Notes under the pieces: model-generated | What the model saw: the letters and a program-made list of their open reading frames with translations, nothing else | Databases searched by the model: none | What the model was told of the DNA's origin: nothing | Made by a program: the position numbers and the translations under genes | Shown: positions 24,589 to 32,022 of the stretch, piece after piece | Numbering within the stretch: position 1 is the first letter of the stretch | How the letters are laid out: each line of letters opens with the position of its first letter | From: an uncultured Gemmiger sp. | Lineage (GTDB): Bacteria; Bacillota; Clostridia; Oscillospirales; Ruminococcaceae | Length of the DNA stretch: 60,926 bases | Direction: 5' to 3' | Assembly: GCA_944388215.1 (NCBI GenBank) | Contig: CALXHT010000010.1 | Span: 1 to 60,926, forward strand

Positions 24589-24900
24589 ATGGATTCCTAC
24601 GAGCAGGACGCCAAGATCTTCAAGGCGCTGTGCGACCCCAAGCGACTGGCCATCCTGGAGCAGCTGCGCAGCGGCGAGAAGTGCGCCTGTAAATTGCAGG
24701 AACCCCTGGCGCTGACCCAGTCGGGGCTTTCCTACCACATAAAGATCCTCTGCGAATCGGGGCTGGTGCTGGCCCGGCAGGAGGGCAAATGGACCCACTA
24801 CCGCCTCAGCGCCGAGGGTCAGGCCCGGGCCGTCCGGCGCCTGCTGGCCCTGACCACCCCCAACGCCGAGGCGCCCGCCTGCGGCTGCAGCGGGCAGTGA
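24589..24900 (+). CDS. arsR: ArsR/SmtB-family metalloregulator
   Basis: 103 residues with the ArsR winged helix (DPKRLAILEQLRSGEKCACKL, LTQSGLSYHIKIL, LVLARQEGKWTHYRL). Cysteines in EKCACKL match the As(III)-binding CxC of ArsR proteins, and an extra C-terminal CGCSGQ may bind metal. It should repress its own operon and leave DNA when arsenite or a similar thiophilic metal binds. Two matching operators flank the gene. The ribosome site is weak (GAGG). Confidence 0.9.
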   Translation: MDSYEQDAKIFKALCDPKRLAILEQLRSGEKCACKLQEPLALTQSGLSYHIKILCESGLVLARQEGKWTHYRLSAEGQARAVRRLLALTTPNAEAPACGCSGQ

Positions 24901-24945
24901 TCTTTTGCCGCGCCCTCTCCGCGCGGCAGTTTTTACGGCCAAAAC

Positions 24946-24961
24946 ATCAAAAAATCTTGAT
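24946..24961 (+). promoter_or_regulatory. Second ArsR-type operator
   Basis: ATCAA-aaaatc-TTGAT, a perfect inverted repeat between arsR and the permease gene, matches the arsR promoter site. No strong -10/-35 was seen beside it, so it may act by roadblock or support DNA looping. Confidence 0.65.
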
Positions 24962-24983
24962 ATGACAAAAGGGGGACTTCCCA

Positions 24984-25985
24984 ATGAATCTCTGGCTGTT
25001 TTTCCAGAATCAGGTGCTGGGCGTGCAGTGGCTCAACACCCTGGTGGGCAACCTGCTCACCGCCCTGGGACTGGACACCGCCTCCCGGCTGGGCGGCAGC
25101 GTGCAGTTCTTTCTCTATGACACCATCAAGATCACCGTCCTGCTGCTGGTGCTGATCTTCGCCATCTCCTGGGTGCAGAGCTACTTCCCGCCCGAGCGCA
25201 GCCGCCGCATCATGGGGCGGTTCCACGGGCTGGGTGCCAACGCGGTGGCGGCGCTGCTGGGCACCGTCACGCCCTTCTGCTCCTGCTCCTCCATCCCCAT
25301 CTTCATCGGCTTCACCGGGGCGGGGCTGCCTCTGGGCGTCACCTTCTCCTTCCTGATCTCCTCGCCCATGGTGGACCTGGGCAGTCTCGTGCTGCTCACC
25401 GGCGTCTTCGGCATCAGGGTGGCCGCCGCCTATGTGGTGCTGGGTCTGGTGGTGGCGGTGGCCGGCGGCACCCTCATCGAATCCCTGCATATGGAGAAAT
25501 ACCTGGAACCCCTGGCCCATGTGGGGGCCGGTGCCGACCTGGACGCCCCCACCCTGACCACCGCCGACCGGCTGCGGTACGCCAGGGGACAGGCGCTGTC
25601 CACCTACCGCAAGGTGCTGCCCTACCTGCTGGTAGGCGTGGGCGTGGGTGCTGTCATCCATAACTGGATCCCCCAGGCCTGGGTGGAAAGGGTGCTGGGG
25701 TCCGGCAATCCCTTCGGCGTGCTGGCGGCGGTCATCGTGGGTGTGCCCATGTACGCCGATATCTTCGGCACCATCCCGGTGGCCGAGGCACTGCTGGCCA
25801 AGGGTGCCCAGCTGGGCACCGTCCTCTCCTTCATGATGGCAGTCACCACGCTGTCGCTGCCGTCGCTGATCCTGCTGCGCAAGGTGGTCAAACCCAGGCT
25901 GCTGGCGCTGTTTATCGCCATCTGCGTGGTGGGTATTGTACTGGTGGGCTATCTTTTCAACGCCCTGCAATTTGTTCTGATCTGA
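24984..25985 (+). CDS. ArsP/DUF318-type permease
   Basis: 333 residues with about eight membrane helices of the ArsP_1 permease family (UPF0718). The diagnostic cysteine motif TPFCSCSSIPIF sits at about residues 94-105, with the second inverted repeat containing GVPMYADIFGTIPVAEAL. Characterised ArsP proteins export trivalent organoarsenicals; others may move arsenite or other soft metals. It is followed by a thioredoxin-like gene and an arsenate-reductase-like gene. The ribosome site is moderate (AAAAGGGGG). Confidence 0.85.
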   Translation: MNLWLFFQNQVLGVQWLNTLVGNLLTALGLDTASRLGGSVQFFLYDTIKITVLLLVLIFAISWVQSYFPPERSRRIMGRFHGLGANAVAALLGTVTPFCSCSSIPIFIGFTGAGLPLGVTFSFLISSPMVDLGSLVLLTGVFGIRVAAAYVVLGLVVAVAGGTLIESLHMEKYLEPLAHVGAGADLDAPTLTTADRLRYARGQALSTYRKVLPYLLVGVGVGAVIHNWIPQAWVERVLGSGNPFGVLAAVIVGVPMYADIFGTIPVAEALLAKGAQLGTVLSFMMAVTTLSLPSLILLRKVVKPRLLALFIAICVVGIVLVGYLFNALQFVLI

Positions 25986-26003
25986 TTCTGGGAGGTATAC
26001 ATT

Positions 26004-26300
26004 ATGAAACTGTTTGGCAAAAAAGAATCCGTACAAACCGAGACCGGCAACGAGGCCGTCAAGGTGCTGGGGGGCGGCTGTGCCAACTGCCATGCACTGG
26101 AAGCGGCGGCCAAGGCGGCGCTGACCGAACTGGGCGAGGCGGCGGAAGTGGGCCACATCACTGATTTTGGTGAGATCGCGGCCTGCGGCGTGCTGCACAC
26201 CCCGGCCCTGATGGTGGACGGCAAGGTGGTGTCCAGCGGCCGGGTGCTGACCAAGGAGGAGGCCAAGGACCTCATCCGGAAAGCGCGGAACCAGGCATGA
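26004..26300 (+). CDS. Thioredoxin-like small redox protein
   Basis: 98 residues of the redox-active-disulfide 2 type (TIGR00412). The active site is CANC (GGGCANCHALEAA), with the cis-proline segment HTPALMVDG. It is routinely found beside ArsP permeases. It may reduce the arsenate reductase or deliver metal to the permease. Its stop overlaps the next ATG (ATGA). Confidence 0.88.
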   Translation: MKLFGKKESVQTETGNEAVKVLGGGCANCHALEAAAKAALTELGEAAEVGHITDFGEIAACGVLHTPALMVDGKVVSSGRVLTKEEAKDLIRKARNQA

Positions 26301-26704
26301 GCGGCAAACCGAAAGTGGCCTTTGTCTGCGTGCACAATTCCTGCCGCAGCCAGATCGCCGAAGCCCTGGGCCGCCTGCTGGCCTCCGATACCTTTGAGAG
26401 CTACTCCGCCGGCACCGAGACCAAACCCGCCATCAACCCCGACGCCGTGCGGCTGGTGAAGGCCCGGTACGGCGTGGATATGGCGGCCACCCAGCGCAGC
26501 AAGCTGCTGGCTGAACTGCCGCCGGTGGATGTGGTCATCACCATGGGCTGCAACGTGCAGTGCCCGGTGCTGCCCTGCACCCGGCGGGAGGACTGGGGTC
26601 TGCCCGATCCCACGGGCCAGGACGACGGAGCCTTTACCGCCGTCATCGATGAGATCGAGCGCCGGGTCCTCCGGCTGAGGGCGGAACTGCGCGCCGGCGA
26701 TTGA
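26297..26704 (+). CDS. arsC: Arsenate reductase, low-molecular-weight phosphatase type
   Basis: 135 residues. The phosphate-binding loop C11-x5-R17 appears as CVHNSCRSQ, and the redox cysteines as MGCNVQCPVLPC. The DWGLPDPTGQ segment supplies the catalytic Asp of the fold. The enzyme reduces arsenate to arsenite with thioredoxin-type electrons. It completes an operon with arsR, the permease and the thioredoxin-like gene. No ArsB or ACR3 pump is present in the window, so the permease is the presumed exporter. Confidence 0.9.
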   Translation: MSGKPKVAFVCVHNSCRSQIAEALGRLLASDTFESYSAGTETKPAINPDAVRLVKARYGVDMAATQRSKLLAELPPVDVVITMGCNVQCPVLPCTRREDWGLPDPTGQDDGAFTAVIDEIERRVLRLRAELRAGD

Positions 26705-26729
26705 CGCCGCCCACGGGCCGTGTTATACT
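26701..26729 (+). promoter_or_regulatory. Promoter of the leader-controlled MFS gene
   Basis: TTGACG (26701-26706, overlapping the arsC stop), 17 bp, TATACT (26724-26729). Confidence 0.8.
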
Positions 26730-26767
26730 GGATTCAATCCAAAAATCACACAAGGCAGGAAACTGCA

Positions 26768-26785
26768 ATGCATCGTCCTATCTGA
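26768..26785 (+). CDS. Five-residue leader peptide MHRPI
   Basis: ATG CAT CGT CCT ATC TGA begins 7 bases after a purine-rich GGCAGGA and lies wholly in the transcribed leader. Codons 2-4 are the 5' outer arm of a long hairpin (26772-26866). A ribosome on this ORF would stop that arm from pairing. I infer a regulatory role for translation rather than for the peptide. Confidence 0.55.
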   Translation: MHRPI

Positions 26786-26871
26786 AAGATTCTCATACCG
26801 CACACAGGGCGCCGGACCCCGGCGCCTGTTTGCCGTGCGGAAAAGGAATCTTTGGGAAAGGACGATTTTTT
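26772..26871 (+). promoter_or_regulatory. Long leader hairpin with T-run, masks the MFS ribosome site
   Basis: Four nested pairings can be traced: ATCGTCCT (26772-26779) with AGGACGAT (26859-26866); AAAGATTC (26785-26792) with GAATCTTT (26846-26853); CCGCAC (26798-26803) with GTGCGG (26835-26840); and a GC-rich tip, CAGGGCGCCGG with CCGGCGCCTG (26805-26828). Six T follow, two bases before GTG 26873. The AAAGGA ribosome site (26857-26862) is partly inside the 3' arm. It can act as a terminator, as an occluder of translation, or both. Confidence 0.75.
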
Positions 26872-26872
26872 C

Positions 26873-28018
26873 GTGAAACGCAATATCTATCTGCTGTACG
26901 CCATGACCTTTCTCCAGGGCATGGTCTTTTACGGTGCCATTTCCACCCTCTACCGGCAGGCCCAGGGAGTGTCCATCTTTGAGATCACCCTCATCGAGAG
27001 TATCTCCTTTGCGCTGAGCATCGCGCTGGAGGTGCCCTGGGGCGTGGTGGCGGACCGCATCGGCTACAAGCGCACGATGATCTTCTGCTGCTGGGTGTAT
27101 TTTCTGTCCAAGATCGTCTTCTGGCAGGCCTCGGATTTCGGCGGTTTCCTGGCCGAGCGGGTGCTGCTCAGCGTGGTCATCGCCGGGTTCTCCGGGGTGG
27201 ATACCAGCATCCTCTATCTCTGCGCCGGGCCGGAAGAGAGCCAGCATGTCTTCGGCGTCTACAACAGCCTGGGCATGGCCGGGCTGCTCACCGCCTCGGC
27301 GGTCTACACCCTCTTCATCGGGGAAGACTACCGCCTGGCCGCCCTGCTCACCGTGTTCAGCTACGGGGCGGCGGCGTTGCTCAGCCTGGGCCTTGTGGAG
27401 GTGCACCCCGCCCCCGAAAAGAAGGCGGAACGGGAACCCTTTGCCGCCACCCTGCGGGTAACGCTCGCCACCCCCGGCCTGCTGGCTTTCCTGCTGGCGG
27501 TGGGGCTGCTCACCGAGGTCCACCAGACCGTCACGGTCTTTCTCAACCAGCTGCAGTACGAGCGCTGCGGCATGGGCAGCACCGCCATCGGCGGGGTGTA
27601 CATCGCGGCCACCCTGCTGGGGCTCTGCGGCACCTGGTCCTCCGCCATGACCCGCCGCACCGGGGGCCGCCGGGCGGCGGTGCTCTTCAGCCTGGTGCCG
27701 GCGCTGGCCTGCGCCGTGCTGGCCCTCACCGACCGGGCGATGCTCTCGGTGGGCAGCGTGCTGCTCCTGCGGGTGTCGGACAGTCTGTTCCAGCCCTTCC
27801 AGGCCCAGCTGCAGAACCGCCAGGTGCACACCGCCAACCGCGCCACTGCATTGAGCATCCACGCCATGCTGCTGGACGCCGTGGCCATCGGCAGCAACCT
27901 GACCTTCGGCGCGCTGGCCCAGTGGGATCTGCGGCTGGCCTTCGGCTACGGGGCAGCGGCAGGGCTGGTAGCCCTGGGACTGCTGACCTACTGGCGGCGC
28001 AAAACAAAACTTGTATAA
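26873..28018 (+). CDS. MFS efflux transporter
   Basis: 381 residues with about twelve membrane helices. The loop between helices 2 and 3 has the MFS signature as GVVADRIGYKRT. The gene resembles drug-efflux MFS proteins more than sugar or nutrient importers. I choose GTG 26873, ten bases after AAAGGA; an in-frame TTG at 26852 lies inside the hairpin and has no ribosome site. The leader (137 bases) with a tiny ORF and a hairpin is typical of genes induced by ribosome-targeting antibiotics, so the substrate may be such a drug. This is inference. Confidence 0.85.
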   Translation: MKRNIYLLYAMTFLQGMVFYGAISTLYRQAQGVSIFEITLIESISFALSIALEVPWGVVADRIGYKRTMIFCCWVYFLSKIVFWQASDFGGFLAERVLLSVVIAGFSGVDTSILYLCAGPEESQHVFGVYNSLGMAGLLTASAVYTLFIGEDYRLAALLTVFSYGAAALLSLGLVEVHPAPEKKAEREPFAATLRVTLATPGLLAFLLAVGLLTEVHQTVTVFLNQLQYERCGMGSTAIGGVYIAATLLGLCGTWSSAMTRRTGGRRAAVLFSLVPALACAVLALTDRAMLSVGSVLLLRVSDSLFQPFQAQLQNRQVHTANRATALSIHAMLLDAVAIGSNLTFGALAQWDLRLAFGYGAAAGLVALGLLTYWRRKTKLV

Positions 28019-28057: not shown

Positions 28058-28086
28058 TTGACAGAACGGGTCTATTGTGATAGACT
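28058..28086 (+). promoter_or_regulatory. blaI-type promoter and operator
   Basis: TTGACA (28058-28063), 17 bp, TAGACT (28081-28086). A perfect inverted repeat GTCTAT-tgtg-ATAGAC (28070-28085) fills the spacer and overlaps the -10, as expected for BlaI self-repression. Confidence 0.8.
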
Positions 28087-28122: not shown

Positions 28123-28500
28123 ATGTCTGTACAGGAACCGCTGCGCCTGGCCGAGGGCGAATACCGTTTTGCCTGCCTGGTGTGGGACCACGAGCCGCTG
28201 CCCAGCGGCGAGCTGGTGAAGCTGGCGGCCGGGGCGCTGGGCTGGAAGAAGAGCACCACCTACACGGTGCTGAAAAAACTCTGTGAGCGGGGCGTGCTGC
28301 AGAATACGGACGGCACGGTGACCAGCCGGGTGGCCAAGCAGGCCGTCCAGTGTGCCGAGAGCGCCGCCGTGGTGGACAAGACCTTCGGGGGCAGTCTGCC
28401 CCGGTTTGTGGCGGCGTTTTTGAGCGCCAAGCCCATCAGCGACGCCGAGGCGGCGGAGATCCGCGCCCTGCTGGATGCCGCCCACGACAAGGAGGGGTGA
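28123..28500 (+). CDS. blaI: BlaI/MecI/CopY-family repressor
   Basis: 125 residues. The winged helix reads WKKSTTYTVLKKLCERGVLQ and is followed by the dimerisation tail (SAKPISDAEAAEIRALLDAA). Proteins of this family repress their operon until cleaved by a BlaR1-type membrane protease, which is encoded 3 bp downstream. A palindromic operator lies in the promoter. Ribosome site AAAGGGGG precedes the ATG. The regulated output seems to be the protease fusion itself; no beta-lactamase gene is nearby. Confidence 0.88.
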   Translation: MSVQEPLRLAEGEYRFACLVWDHEPLPSGELVKLAAGALGWKKSTTYTVLKKLCERGVLQNTDGTVTSRVAKQAVQCAESAAVVDKTFGGSLPRFVAAFLSAKPISDAEAAEIRALLDAAHDKEG

Positions 28501-28503
28501 CCC

Positions 28504-30456
28504 ATGGGTGAACTGGTACTCCGCTTTTTGCTGCTCAGCCTGTGGGGCGGAGCGGCCACGCTGGGGGCGCTGGCTGTCAGCGGGGTGCTGCGCCGTCTGC
28601 ACATTCCCAGCCGGCTGCTCTGCTGGCTGTGGCTGGCGGTGGGGCTGCGTTTCGCCCTGCCCTGGGGCATTCCGCTGACGCTGCCCCGGCCCCGGAATGA
28701 AAATCTGGCCCAGGCGGCCGACACAGTCCAGGCCCTGGCCGAAGGCCCCGCCCCGGTGGCGCTGCCCGCGGTGCAGGCTCCGGCGGTGACGGCAGCCGCT
28801 GCGGCCCCCTGGTATACCCGGCTGACGGTCTGGCATCTGCTGGCCGCTGTCTGGGCGGTGGGGGTGCTGGTGCTGGCGGTGCGGGCGGTGGCCGGGTATC
28901 TCCGGCTGCGCCGCACGGTGGCCCTGGCCTGCAAAACCGAGGACGGCTGCTACAGCGGCAGCTGCGTGCCCGCGCCCTTCACGCTGGGCATCCTCCGGCC
29001 GCGCATCTACCTGCCCGCGGCCCTCACGGGGGCGGCCCGGCAGGCGGTGGTGCTCCACGAGCGCACCCATCTGCGCCGCCACGACCCCCAGACCAAGCCG
29101 CTCTACTATGCGGTGGTCTGCCTGCACTGGTTCAACCCCCTGGCCTGGCTGGCCTTCCGCCAGCTGGAGCGGGAGATGGAATCCGCCTGCGACGAGGCGG
29201 CCGTCCGGGGCTGCGACGCTGCCGCCCGCAACGCATACTGCGAGAGCATCCTGCAGTATGCTTTGCAGGGCCGGATGGCGCCGGGCTCCCTGGCCTTCGG
29301 GCAGGGCAGCGTAAAGGCCCGCATTGTGCATCTTCTGCACTACCGCAAAATTGGCGCGGGGGCGCTGCTGGTCTGTGCGGCGGCGGTGGGCCTCAGCGTC
29401 ACCGCCTGCATGATGCAGCCCCAGGTGGAGGAGGCTACCCCCGAGACGGCGCAGCCCGCCACGACGGAAGCCACCGCCGAGACGCCGGACACCCCCGAGA
29501 CGGCGGTGTCCTTCACGGCCAACACAGCGGGGCTGCCCAACCTGGACGACCCCGAAAACAGCCCGCGGTTCCTCTGCCCGGTGGATTATGAGTATGTCAC
29601 GGTTTACATGAATGAGGGCCACCGGGGGGATGATCTGGCGGCGGATACGGGTACGCCGGTCTATGCGGCCCAGGACGGGCTGGTGACCTACGCGGCGTAC
29701 CACCAAAGCTACGGCAACTGTGTGGTTCTGGACCACGGTGCCGGACCGGACGGCAACCTCTGGACCACCCTGTACGCCCACATGGACGATTACACGGTGG
29801 AGGCGGGGCAGACCGTCAAGGCCGGCGACCTCATCGGCCATGTGGGGACCACCGGGTATTCCACCGGTCCGCATCTGCATTTTGAGATAACTCTCAACGG
29901 CATCGTCACCCAGCCCCGGTATTTTACAGATTACCGGGCGGCGGACAGCAAACCCCTGAATGCCGAAAATGTGCAGATGCTGCGGGAGGAAGCGGAAAAC
30001 AACGCCGCACTCTACGCCGCGCAGAGCAACTACGACATCCTGCAGGAGCAGCTGGACCAGCTGACGACCCGTCGGGAAGAGATGCAGACCTCCCTGGATA
30101 CCTTGGACCAGTCGACCTCCGGCACCGAGGCGGAGCGGCGGCAGCAGCGGCAGGATATGGAAGATGCCATCCAGGTCATGGATGAGCAGATCCGTGTGTT
30201 GGAGGATCAAATCAACACAGCCCTGCAGCAGGTGGAAGAACAGACTGTCCAGAAACAGCTGAACCAGGAGCAAGCCAAAGAGGACGCCCAGTCCGCCCAG
30301 GCCCAGCTCCAGCAGCAGATCGAAGCCGCCCAGTCCTCCGGCAGCACCACCGACCCGGCGCTGCAAGCCGGGGAGGAGGAAGCCCGCCGGAACCTGGAGC
30401 AGGCCCAGAGCCAGCTGGACAGCTATCTGGGAACGGGTTCCGCCCGGAACGGATGA
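28504..30456 (+). CDS. M56 (BlaR1-like) and M23 (LytM) metallopeptidase fusion
   Basis: 650 residues in three parts. Residues 1-305 are a multi-helix membrane M56 protease with the zinc motif HERTH at about 185-189 and an ESACDEAA segment as third ligand. Residues about 350-465 are an extracellular M23/LytM peptidase with HRGDDLAA, LYAHMDDY and HLHFEI. Residues 480-640 are a Gln/Glu-rich coiled coil. In BlaR1 a penicillin-binding sensor occupies the extracellular position; here a cell-wall endopeptidase fold does. It probably links cell-wall state to cleavage of the BlaI repressor. Fusions of this type are known only by annotation. Confidence 0.88.
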   Translation: MGELVLRFLLLSLWGGAATLGALAVSGVLRRLHIPSRLLCWLWLAVGLRFALPWGIPLTLPRPRNENLAQAADTVQALAEGPAPVALPAVQAPAVTAAAAAPWYTRLTVWHLLAAVWAVGVLVLAVRAVAGYLRLRRTVALACKTEDGCYSGSCVPAPFTLGILRPRIYLPAALTGAARQAVVLHERTHLRRHDPQTKPLYYAVVCLHWFNPLAWLAFRQLEREMESACDEAAVRGCDAAARNAYCESILQYALQGRMAPGSLAFGQGSVKARIVHLLHYRKIGAGALLVCAAAVGLSVTACMMQPQVEEATPETAQPATTEATAETPDTPETAVSFTANTAGLPNLDDPENSPRFLCPVDYEYVTVYMNEGHRGDDLAADTGTPVYAAQDGLVTYAAYHQSYGNCVVLDHGAGPDGNLWTTLYAHMDDYTVEAGQTVKAGDLIGHVGTTGYSTGPHLHFEITLNGIVTQPRYFTDYRAADSKPLNAENVQMLREEAENNAALYAAQSNYDILQEQLDQLTTRREEMQTSLDTLDQSTSGTEAERRQQRQDMEDAIQVMDEQIRVLEDQINTALQQVEEQTVQKQLNQEQAKEDAQSAQAQLQQQIEAAQSSGSTTDPALQAGEEEARRNLEQAQSQLDSYLGTGSARNG

Positions 30457-30777: not shown

Positions 30778-32022
30778 TTATACGCCCCGGCGGCGCCAGA
30801 TGCATTCCACCGCATAGCGCACGGCGTCGATGTGGTGGTTGTTCACGTCGGGATACCCGGGCAGCACCTCGCCGGTGCGGGGGTCCCGCTGGTACTCGTA
30901 CTCGCTGAACTCCGCCGCCGTGGCGGGGCAGCGGGCCGGGTCAATGACGATGGACGCCAGCCCCTGCAGCCATTTCATGCTCTCCCGCACGCTGCCGGGT
31001 CCCTTCACGGCCGCCCGGCAGGGCAGACCCGCCGCCCGGTAATCGGCGCAGGATTTCGGCTCGGCGGCATCGGCGGTGAGCAGCCCGCCGTCGTCCCCGC
31101 CCACGCCCCGCTCCACCAGCAGTTGGGCGGTGTCCCGGTTGGGGGTGCGGGTGCGGGTCAGCTCGTCAAAGACGATCAGCGTGCGCCGGGCGGCGTCGTA
31201 GGTCACGGCGTTGTAGGCCCAGGGGTCGGGGTACCAGCCCCAGTCCACCCCGTGGTACAGCCGGTCAAAGGAGGCAATCTCCTCGTCGGAGACCGCCCGC
31301 AGCGAAAGGTTGTCAAACACCGCCGCGCCGCTGCCCACCACCTCGCCGCCGTACTCGTGGCGGTAGGCCTCGGGGTTGGTGTTGCGCAGATGCTCGGCAT
31401 CCGCCCAGAACCGCTCCCCCAAAAACTGCCGCGGCAGGTCCCGGTAGGTGGAATGGTGCACCAGCTTGCCGGGGCGGGGTTCCAGCACATAGCGGTTGAC
31501 CCAGCTGCGGGCCATGGCCGGCGGGTTGAAACTTTTCAGGGTCAGCGTCCAGTCGCCGCCCCGCAGGATGCTCTGCTCCACGCTGCGCACCTCCTCCGGC
31601 CCGTCGAACTGGTCAAGCTCTTCAAACCAACAAAGTCCCACAGCACCGAACGGTACTTTCAAACTCTTGAGCTTGCCCGCGTCGTCCAGGCCGAAGAAGA
31701 GGATCTTCTGGCCGGTGGGCAGATAGGTGCATTCCATGGGGCTGACGGTGCAGCGGAAATACCTCGTACACCCCAGCGCGCCGATGGCCCACACGATCTG
31801 GCTGTACACGCTGTTGCGTAGCGTGCCCGCCACCTTGCGCAGCACCACGGCGTGACAGCCGGGATGGCGCAGCAGTTGGTAGACCAGCTCCAGCGAAAGA
31901 TAGCTGGACTTGCCCGACCCGCGTCCGCCCTTGGCCACCACCTCCTGGACGGTGCCCCGGCGGATGGCCGTGTGTACCGGCCAGAACACCGCCGGAATGA
32001 CTTTTTTCAACTGTACCCGCAC
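30778..32022 (-). CDS. Phage terminase large subunit (PBSX type)
   Basis: 414 residues. The ATPase part has Walker A (AKGGRGSGKSS, about 30-40) and Walker B (LCWFEELDQFDG). The C-terminal nuclease half is present (VDWGWYPDPWAYNAV, VNNHHIDAVRYAVE). The enzyme packages DNA into a phage prohead, or into gene-transfer particles. It starts at GTG 32022 behind GGAGG and follows the small-subunit-like gene. No portal, capsid or integrase genes are on either side: the neighbours are a BlaI operon and beta-galactosidase. The ORF is complete with all motifs. Confidence 0.88.
   Translation of the reverse strand: MRVQLKKVIPAVFWPVHTAIRRGTVQEVVAKGGRGSGKSSYLSLELVYQLLRHPGCHAVVLRKVAGTLRNSVYSQIVWAIGALGCTRYFRCTVSPMECTYLPTGQKILFFGLDDAGKLKSLKVPFGAVGLCWFEELDQFDGPEEVRSVEQSILRGGDWTLTLKSFNPPAMARSWVNRYVLEPRPGKLVHHSTYRDLPRQFLGERFWADAEHLRNTNPEAYRHEYGGEVVGSGAAVFDNLSLRAVSDEEIASFDRLYHGVDWGWYPDPWAYNAVTYDAARRTLIVFDELTRTRTPNRDTAQLLVERGVGGDDGGLLTADAAEPKSCADYRAAGLPCRAAVKGPGSVRESMKWLQGLASIVIDPARCPATAAEFSEYEYQRDPRTGEVLPGYPDVNNHHIDAVRYAVECIWRRRGV

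Follow-up and report, generated by a model that had tools for sequence, protein, structure and literature searches.

The window, that is, the whole stretch of 60,926 nucleotides analysed here, encodes an MFS transporter behind a leader that carries a tiny ORF with its own Shine-Dalgarno (SD) sequence and a long hairpin predicted to mask the SD sequence of the transporter gene. The features, all on the forward strand, are the following.

26701-26729, + strand: predicted sigma-70-type promoter TTGACG-17-TATACT of the transporter mRNA (consensus scan, 10 of 12 consensus bases).
26757-26762, + strand: SD sequence AGGAAA of the leader ORF (sequence).
26768-26785, + strand: leader ORF ATG CAT CGT CCT ATC TGA, five codons encoding MHRPI and a stop (sequence, homologues).
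26772-26779, + strand: outer 5' arm, within leader ORF codons 2-4, pairing with AGGACGAT (fold, arm-swap test).
26772-26866, + strand: nested masking hairpin, 95 bases (RNAfold z -6.4; covariation in 26 homologous leaders).
26805-26828, + strand: inner G+C-rich hairpin (fold; helix 3 in the homologues, 91% of cells paired).
26827-26838, + strand: conserved motif TGTTTGYYGTGC, directly 3' of the inner hairpin (motif count in homologues).
26857-26862, + strand: transporter SD sequence AAAGGA, predicted to be masked inside the 3' arm (sequence, fold).
26866-26871, + strand: run of six T at the hairpin base, terminator-like (sequence).
26873-28018, + strand: MFS transporter gene, GTG start, 381 amino acids (Pfam MFS_1; AlphaFold2).

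The original prediction had placed here a consensus promoter giving a 137-base leader, a complete tiny ORF (MHRPI) with its own ribosome site, codons 2-4 of that ORF as the outer 5' arm of a roughly 95-base nested hairpin, and the SD sequence of the pump gene in the 3' arm. Each of these elements was recovered at the positions listed, with the 5' arm beginning in codon 2 and the AAAGGA paired in the fold; the 137 bases presume that transcription starts about 7 bases past the -10 box. The six T were likewise found, but they had been placed two bases before the start codon and C26872 is the sole base between them and the GTG at 26873. A start at TTG 26852, as given in the ORF list, is unlikely for the transporter, because both the similarity among homologues and their start codon begin at GTG 26873. 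RNAfold, proposed as a check of the leader, gave a minimum free energy of -66.5 kcal/mol for 26739-26900 against -39.9 +/- 4.2 for 200 dinucleotide shuffles (z -6.41), none of which folded as well. The G+C-rich hairpin followed by the T-run resembles an intrinsic terminator in layout, but it is absent from the list of a simple terminator scan, which accepts only loops of 3-8. At gathering thresholds, Rfam matched only a tRNA in the window and assigned no family to the leader, and a permissive search of 26690-26900 gave six matches (best E 0.02), all far under their gathering scores.

The transporter belongs to Pfam MFS_1 (E 1.2e-24), with only weak, sub-cutoff NCBIfam matches to multidrug and sugar transporters. 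Structure comparison of its AlphaFold2 model (pLDDT 87.8, 32 alignment rows) using Foldseek/VIA-align returned importers and exporters together (NorA, SotB, MdfA, VMAT, SLC19, NupG and SPNS2). As the fold resembles both alike, the structure search does not tell the direction of transport, and it is the leader regulation that makes a pump the likely reading. A plasmid collection held four records annotated as MFS transporter with 27-51% identity. We found no conserved neighbour hinting at the substrate, since among six-frame ORFs of at least 90 codons within 2.5 kb no flanking cluster occurred in more than 10 of 80 loci.

Upstream in the window, an arsenic-type operon (24589-26704), with an ArsR-family regulator, an ArsP-type permease, an ArsE-type thioredoxin and an ArsC-like phosphatase, ends directly at the transporter promoter. 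Downstream, a BlaI-type repressor gene (28123-28500) adjoins a gene in which a BlaR1-type M56 domain is fused to an M23 peptidase domain (28504-30456), and the inverted repeat GTCTATtgtgATAGAC at a promoter-like site (28058-28086) may be the operator of this repressor. A PBSX-type phage terminase large subunit on the minus strand (30778-32022) marks a prophage or remnant.

Homologues of the transporter were collected from 100 related genomes, of which 22 matched at E <=0.001 and 12 of these at E <=1e-50 (the window's own included), and from named genomes, where the best 80 of 169 relatives (L029-L108) come partly from the same genomes as the 100-genome set. Counts over 79 loci refer to these best 80 of 169 without L095, which has 76 bases upstream where at least 150 were required. 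A tiny ORF, defined as starting with ATG, having at most 15 codons and ending in Pro-Ile, Pro-Thr, Pro-Val or Pro-Ser before the stop, is present in 73 of the 79 loci, compared with a mean of 1.5 and a maximum of 5 in 30 rounds of dinucleotide shuffling; the exact form Met-x-x-Pro-[Ile/Thr/Val/Ser]-stop accounts for 56 of the 79. The peptides at the equivalent site include MHRPI, MYRPI, MNRPV, MNRPI, MLCPI, MYSPI, MNCPI, MKSPT and MLYRSNPT. Two further loci have a Pro-x-stop ORF outside the rule, MNRPF with another last residue (L049) and a GTG-start ORF ending DRPV (L030), and four of the 79 (L085, L091, L103 and L105) have none. As labelled, the leaders are spread over Oscillospirales, Lachnospiraceae, other Clostridia and Erysipelotrichales, with Desulfosporosinus and Collinsella once each and many metagenome bins.

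Across 75 leaders, the last sense codon encodes Ile (41), Thr (26), Ser (4), Val (3) or Phe (1), the stop is TGA (43), TAA (24) or TAG (8), and all four Pro codons are used (CCC 33, CCG 22, CCA 17, CCT 3). Pro itself, in 75 of 75, belonged to the search rule and therefore adds no evidence of its own, unlike the 73 of 79 against shuffles. The residue preceding Pro is unconstrained (Arg, Ser, Asn, Cys, Phe, Asp and others), and so are the N-terminal residues and the length (5-13 codons), such that the constant part is Pro, mostly Ile or Thr, and the stop. By the shortest reading, 58 of the 75 ORFs are five codons long; the other 17, with 6, 8, 12 or 13 codons, keep the C-terminus alone. The pattern is the same in 51 leaders after clustering to less than 75% similarity (Ile 30, Thr 15, Ser 3, Val 2, Phe 1). 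At least seven switches between Ile and Thr were mapped on a quick tree of 101 transporters. This tree left out 15 of 116 proteins, namely L095 and 14 distant ones whose start was misplaced or that gave no usable ORF. After later start placement, L149, L150, L151, L154, L155, L165 and L169 had no tiny ORF, and L159, L161, L163, L166, L167, L175 and L176 had one without Pro-Ile/Thr-stop; their omission leaves the Ile/Thr count untouched and makes the remaining labels, which were given by eye for leaders without Pro, look tidier.

In 67 of the 75 leaders the last sense codon begins with A, and the Pro wobble base varies. This first base is unpaired in the minimum free energy fold of the window (26780, in an internal loop) and in the structure of 26 homologues, 24 of which carry A there. 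Being unpaired yet conserved, it is not explained by pairing, and together with the variable Pro wobble base it is, on sequence grounds, a codon-like pattern.

Pairing of the two arms was also conserved. At least three of five transporter SD bases are paired in the minimum free energy folds of 73 of 76 leaders, and in 67 of the 76 at least three are paired to the last 18 nucleotides of the leader ORF. In an arm-swap test over all 76 leaders, native arms paired on average at -16.8 kcal/mol compared with -10.4 for arms taken between loci (native median rank 8%); like the T-run and motif counts, this test used the last 18 nucleotides of each ORF, with the window row shifted by two bases. Covariation was assessed in 26 of 51 leaders picked by hand as alignable, on a structure of 23 pairs named by hand; the arm-swap test is independent of this choice, whereas the fraction of cells paired (81.0% vs 74.8% shuffled) leans to the named structure because of it. 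Covariation of the paired arms, a check suggested in the original prediction, was supported by 59 double-change cells with pairing kept, compared with 26 in shuffles that ignore relatedness (0 of 500 as high) and with at most 23 when the partner was slid out of register. Further pair types were not above shuffles in these 26 leaders (33 vs 30.8, 84 of 500 as high), and RNAalifold on a MAFFT alignment of 52 leaders predicted zero pairs because the middle of the alignment is too variable. Leaders of the Ile type (ATC TGA with TCAGA) and of the Thr type (ACC TGA with CAGG) compensate at columns 11 and 105, where 15 of the 26 have U-A, 6 have C-G and 5 are unpaired.

Homologues that keep the transporter had been expected to share the short ORF and compensatory stem changes, and they do, with the ORF in 73 of 79 loci and covarying arms. 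The ORF, the hairpin, the predicted masking, their conservation and their covariation can be read directly from the sequences, and the short ORF and masking hairpin are supported as a conserved, covarying unit upstream of the transporter. This arrangement, a short ORF with its own SD sequence and an SD-sequestering hairpin with one arm at the ORF, is that of leader-ORF translational attenuators with an ermC-like mechanism.

This unit appears to belong to the transporter as far as searched, since the nine best matches of a covariance model in 150 related genomes all precede it, each with a Pro-x-stop ORF (GTG-started in one case). The model gave many weak matches, of which 30 were taken as loci and 19 checked (L109-L127) under strict filters that may miss divergent copies; none of the other ten checked loci, at 30 bits or less, precedes this transporter. 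A reading ending in Pro-Thr-stop at one of the checked loci (L124) was rejected as chance, as it lies within another coding region.

We propose that the leader is a translational attenuator in which arrest at termination on the tiny ORF frees the transporter SD sequence, a reading to which we assign a probability of about 0.65. In the resting state, a ribosome would read the five-codon ORF, terminate and depart, and the leader would then fold into the long hairpin that buries the SD sequence; in the window copy, the T-run may additionally stop transcription. A ribosome stalled on the tiny ORF would probably open the hairpin and expose the SD sequence. We infer that the ORF is translated and that arrest occurs at termination, triggered by a small molecule that acts on the ribosome close to the peptidyl transferase centre and that the transporter would remove. 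The leader would thus sense some translation inhibitor, in line with the ribosome-targeting inducer proposed in the original prediction.

Computed opening of the hairpin is consistent with this mechanism. In the window, the unpaired probability of AGGA is 0.01 in the free leader; a ribosome placed at the leader start raises it to 0.42, and one placed at the leader stop to 0.67. Over the 73 loci scored of 76, accessibility is 0.25 when free, 0.50 with a ribosome at the start and 0.49 at the stop; arrest anywhere on a five-codon ORF could therefore free the SD sequence, and the folding computation does not choose the arrest position. The 11 ORFs of at least 8 codons differ little (0.42 at the start, 0.46 at the stop). 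Two of the three longest ORFs are poorly masked when free (L098 0.62, L104 0.49), and in L098 the SD sequence becomes less open upon arrest (0.23 with the ribosome at the stop); this poor fit of the longest ORFs lowered our estimate to the value given above. Because conservation of the peptide is concentrated in its Pro-Ile/Thr-stop end, arrest there is a better match than a stall at an arbitrary position of the ORF. We chose termination because this end adjoins the invariant stop, because long ORFs keep it and because MsrDL provides a precedent: there, erythromycin arrests the ribosome at the stop codon of MYLIFM, as toeprinting showed (PMC10314930), and the residues directly before the stop of our leaders are conserved as Pro-[Ile/Thr/Val/Ser], as arrest of that type would require.

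The same attenuator could instead be worked by arrest at or near the start codon through an initiation-type inhibitor (tetracycline, retapamulin-like), with the peptide unread and Pro-Ile kept as an RNA arm. In the named structure, CC of the Pro codon takes part in the pairing with the transporter SD sequence, so that Pro may be kept by RNA pairing, and in the 56 leaders with a five-codon ORF the SD sequence opens equally with the ribosome at either codon (0.51 at the start, 0.50 at the stop). The toiL leader is induced in this way by tetracycline and retapamulin (PMC12121999). Against this stand the unpaired yet conserved first base of the last codon and a last residue that is nearly always Ile or Thr. 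The 12-13-codon ORFs L098, L101 and L104 also keep Pro-Thr-stop, although the footprint of a ribosome on the start codon of such an ORF should fall short of the pairing arm; the folding, however, makes no distinction between a ribosome at the start and one at the stop, and agrees poorly with two of these three loci. We consider start-codon arrest unlikely, though it is the alternative that survives best.

The hairpin and T-run could also be an intrinsic terminator, ending transcription of the upstream ars genes or serving as a transcriptional attenuator, with the masking of the SD sequence incidental. The six T sit directly at the hairpin base, which suggests transcription termination in this copy, and attenuation of transcription governs mef(E)/mel (PMC4335068) and contributes to the control of vmlR (PMC9226507). 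However, a T-run of at least 5 occurs in only 28 of 76 leaders, or 15 of 51 non-redundant ones, whereas the transporter SD sequence is paired in nearly all as given above; a transcriptional layer is therefore optional. The leader unit also recurs in other gene contexts, as the lack of common flanking clusters indicates. Termination as the main function is thus improbable, but it overlaps with attenuation by ribosome arrest, since a single leader can use both layers.

Direct ligand binding by the inner hairpin and the TGTTTGYYGTGC motif, as in a riboswitch, is very improbable. A 17-base motif of this region reaches at least 10 matching bases in 46 of the 51 non-redundant leaders, and in 10 of 51 after one round of base shuffling. 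However, in L047, L052 and L088/L144, whose leaders are short, neither inner hairpin nor motif is recognisable by eye although the Pro-x-stop ORF and the anti-SD are kept, and Rfam gave no match at gathering threshold. An amino-acid attenuator sensing charged Pro or Ile tRNA would have one codon of each at the critical place, but the single codons, the use of four Pro codons, the replacement of Ile by Thr, Ser, Val or Phe and an MFS_1 transporter rather than a biosynthetic gene leave it hardly any credit. The motif may possibly be a pause site of RNA polymerase. The inner hairpin followed by TGTTTGYYGTGC resembles, as a partial match only, the pause hairpin and subsequent NusG-type TTNTTT pause described for vmlR (PMC9226507).

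The architecture of the leader is known from other systems, and the leader family, with its probable termination-type signature, is new as far as the literature searched shows. MsrDL/msrD is alike in having a very short ORF, and there too a ribosome arrested on it opens a hairpin in front of a resistance gene (PMC10314930), but msrD belongs to the ABC-F genes and macrolides control it through transcriptional attenuation, whereas masking of the SD sequence is general here, and MYLIFM works best with UAA, whereas our leaders have a different peptide and all three stops. The Firmicutes genes CplR, VmlR, VmlR2 and LsaA have uORFs of 3-4 codons (MR[I/M], MIN, MK[L/Q] and MAGN), and in CplR a hairpin hides the SD sequence and is followed by polyU (PMC10201436). 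These are ABC-F genes with other peptides, and in CplR the uORF and terminator hairpins are separate, whereas here the ORF itself is the anti-SD arm. In toiL (topAI-yjhQP), the SD sequence of the following gene is paired to the uORF region and is released when a ribosome arrests, but this is an E. coli toxin-antitoxin operon with Rho-dependent termination that responds to several drug classes (PMC12121999). The leader peptide Mef(E)L (MTASMRLR) of mef(E)/mel also controls an MFS pump, but through an RLR-type peptide and transcriptional attenuation (PMC4335068); read by eye, no leader of the homologues has the R-L-R motif of Erm(D)L and Mef(E)L. The tetQ gene of CTnDOT likewise places tetracycline resistance under translational control, with a four-codon uORF ascribed to Wang 2005 (PMC12121999, PMC5418344), but it is a ribosome protection gene of Bacteroides.

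In the main texts of the open-access journal articles covered, searches on leader peptides, uORFs and attenuation yielded nothing on this leader family, and MNRPI, MHRPI, MNCPI, MNRPT, MYRPI and MNRPV as whole words were unmatched. The main text of two RNA-motif surveys reporting uORF candidates contains neither 'MFS' nor 'efflux' (PMC11109978, PMC8632094). If termination arrest is true, these leaders would be an unreported leader-peptide family in which a minimal nascent chain serves as the sensor during termination and not during elongation. The transporter substrate could then be found via the compound that induces the leader, and the natural variants (Ile/Thr/Val/Ser, three stops, 5-13 codons) could dissect how the last two residues control release.

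Beyond these close relatives, we inspected 35 distant loci, with all 35 starts placed by alignment. Most of them belong to the order of Merdibacter, and their identity to the respective query lies mostly between 30 and 56%. A tiny ATG ORF of 3-13 codons behind an SD sequence is present in 23 of the 35 (shuffled mean 5.3, maximum 12, 60 rounds). Most of these end in other residues than Pro-Ile/Thr (MYVPVH, MIRAPKH, MVLF[RQL]I, MKNVD, MAD, MKKC, MVDI, MNNVLH and MNADVRS), and Pro-type or further leaders are also found (MYRPI, MRKPI and MSVFMSLLNNPT). The 12 of 35 without a tiny ORF by this rule include L146, L152, which has one under a looser rule, L171, with a GTG-start ORF ending RPV, and L162 and L168, with a start-stop. 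The tiny-ORF arrangement thus seems, from these sequences, to be older than the Pro-Ile/Thr ending, with many exceptions. A bolder proposal, which we hold tentatively and which may well prove wrong, is that Pro, a beta-branched residue and a stop are a genuine termination-arrest code. A compound that gut Firmicutes encounter would block release only after such an end, the five-residue chain would be the whole sensor, and related transporters would have swapped endings (Asp-Ile-stop, LFxI-stop, VLH-stop, NVD-stop, KKC-stop, possibly a bare start-stop) for other compounds.

At L085, L105, L162 and L168, an SD sequence precedes a bare ATG TAG or ATG TAA at the position of the leader ORF. Such start-stops behind an SD sequence occur in 5 of 115 loci, these four and L052, where one accompanies a Pro-x-stop ORF, and are not clearly above shuffles (mean 2.3, maximum 6).

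A paralogous MFS gene in the same genome (L024, G000:C18:11340-12410) has another, longer leader ORF, MAWRFSKIQLKKGNVLAFQGDSAPFWKVKMAR followed by a stop. Similar leaders precede L025, L026 (MGWKMRTVRVQKGNEMAV..SAPF) and L028 (MGWKLREIRLQKGNILAL..SAPF), and the leader ORF of L017 and L020 reads MRWQFGVVFQKKGNP before its stop. The shared W...KGN, mostly together with SAPF, suggests a second leader-peptide family, which presumably recalls the Tet(L) leader.
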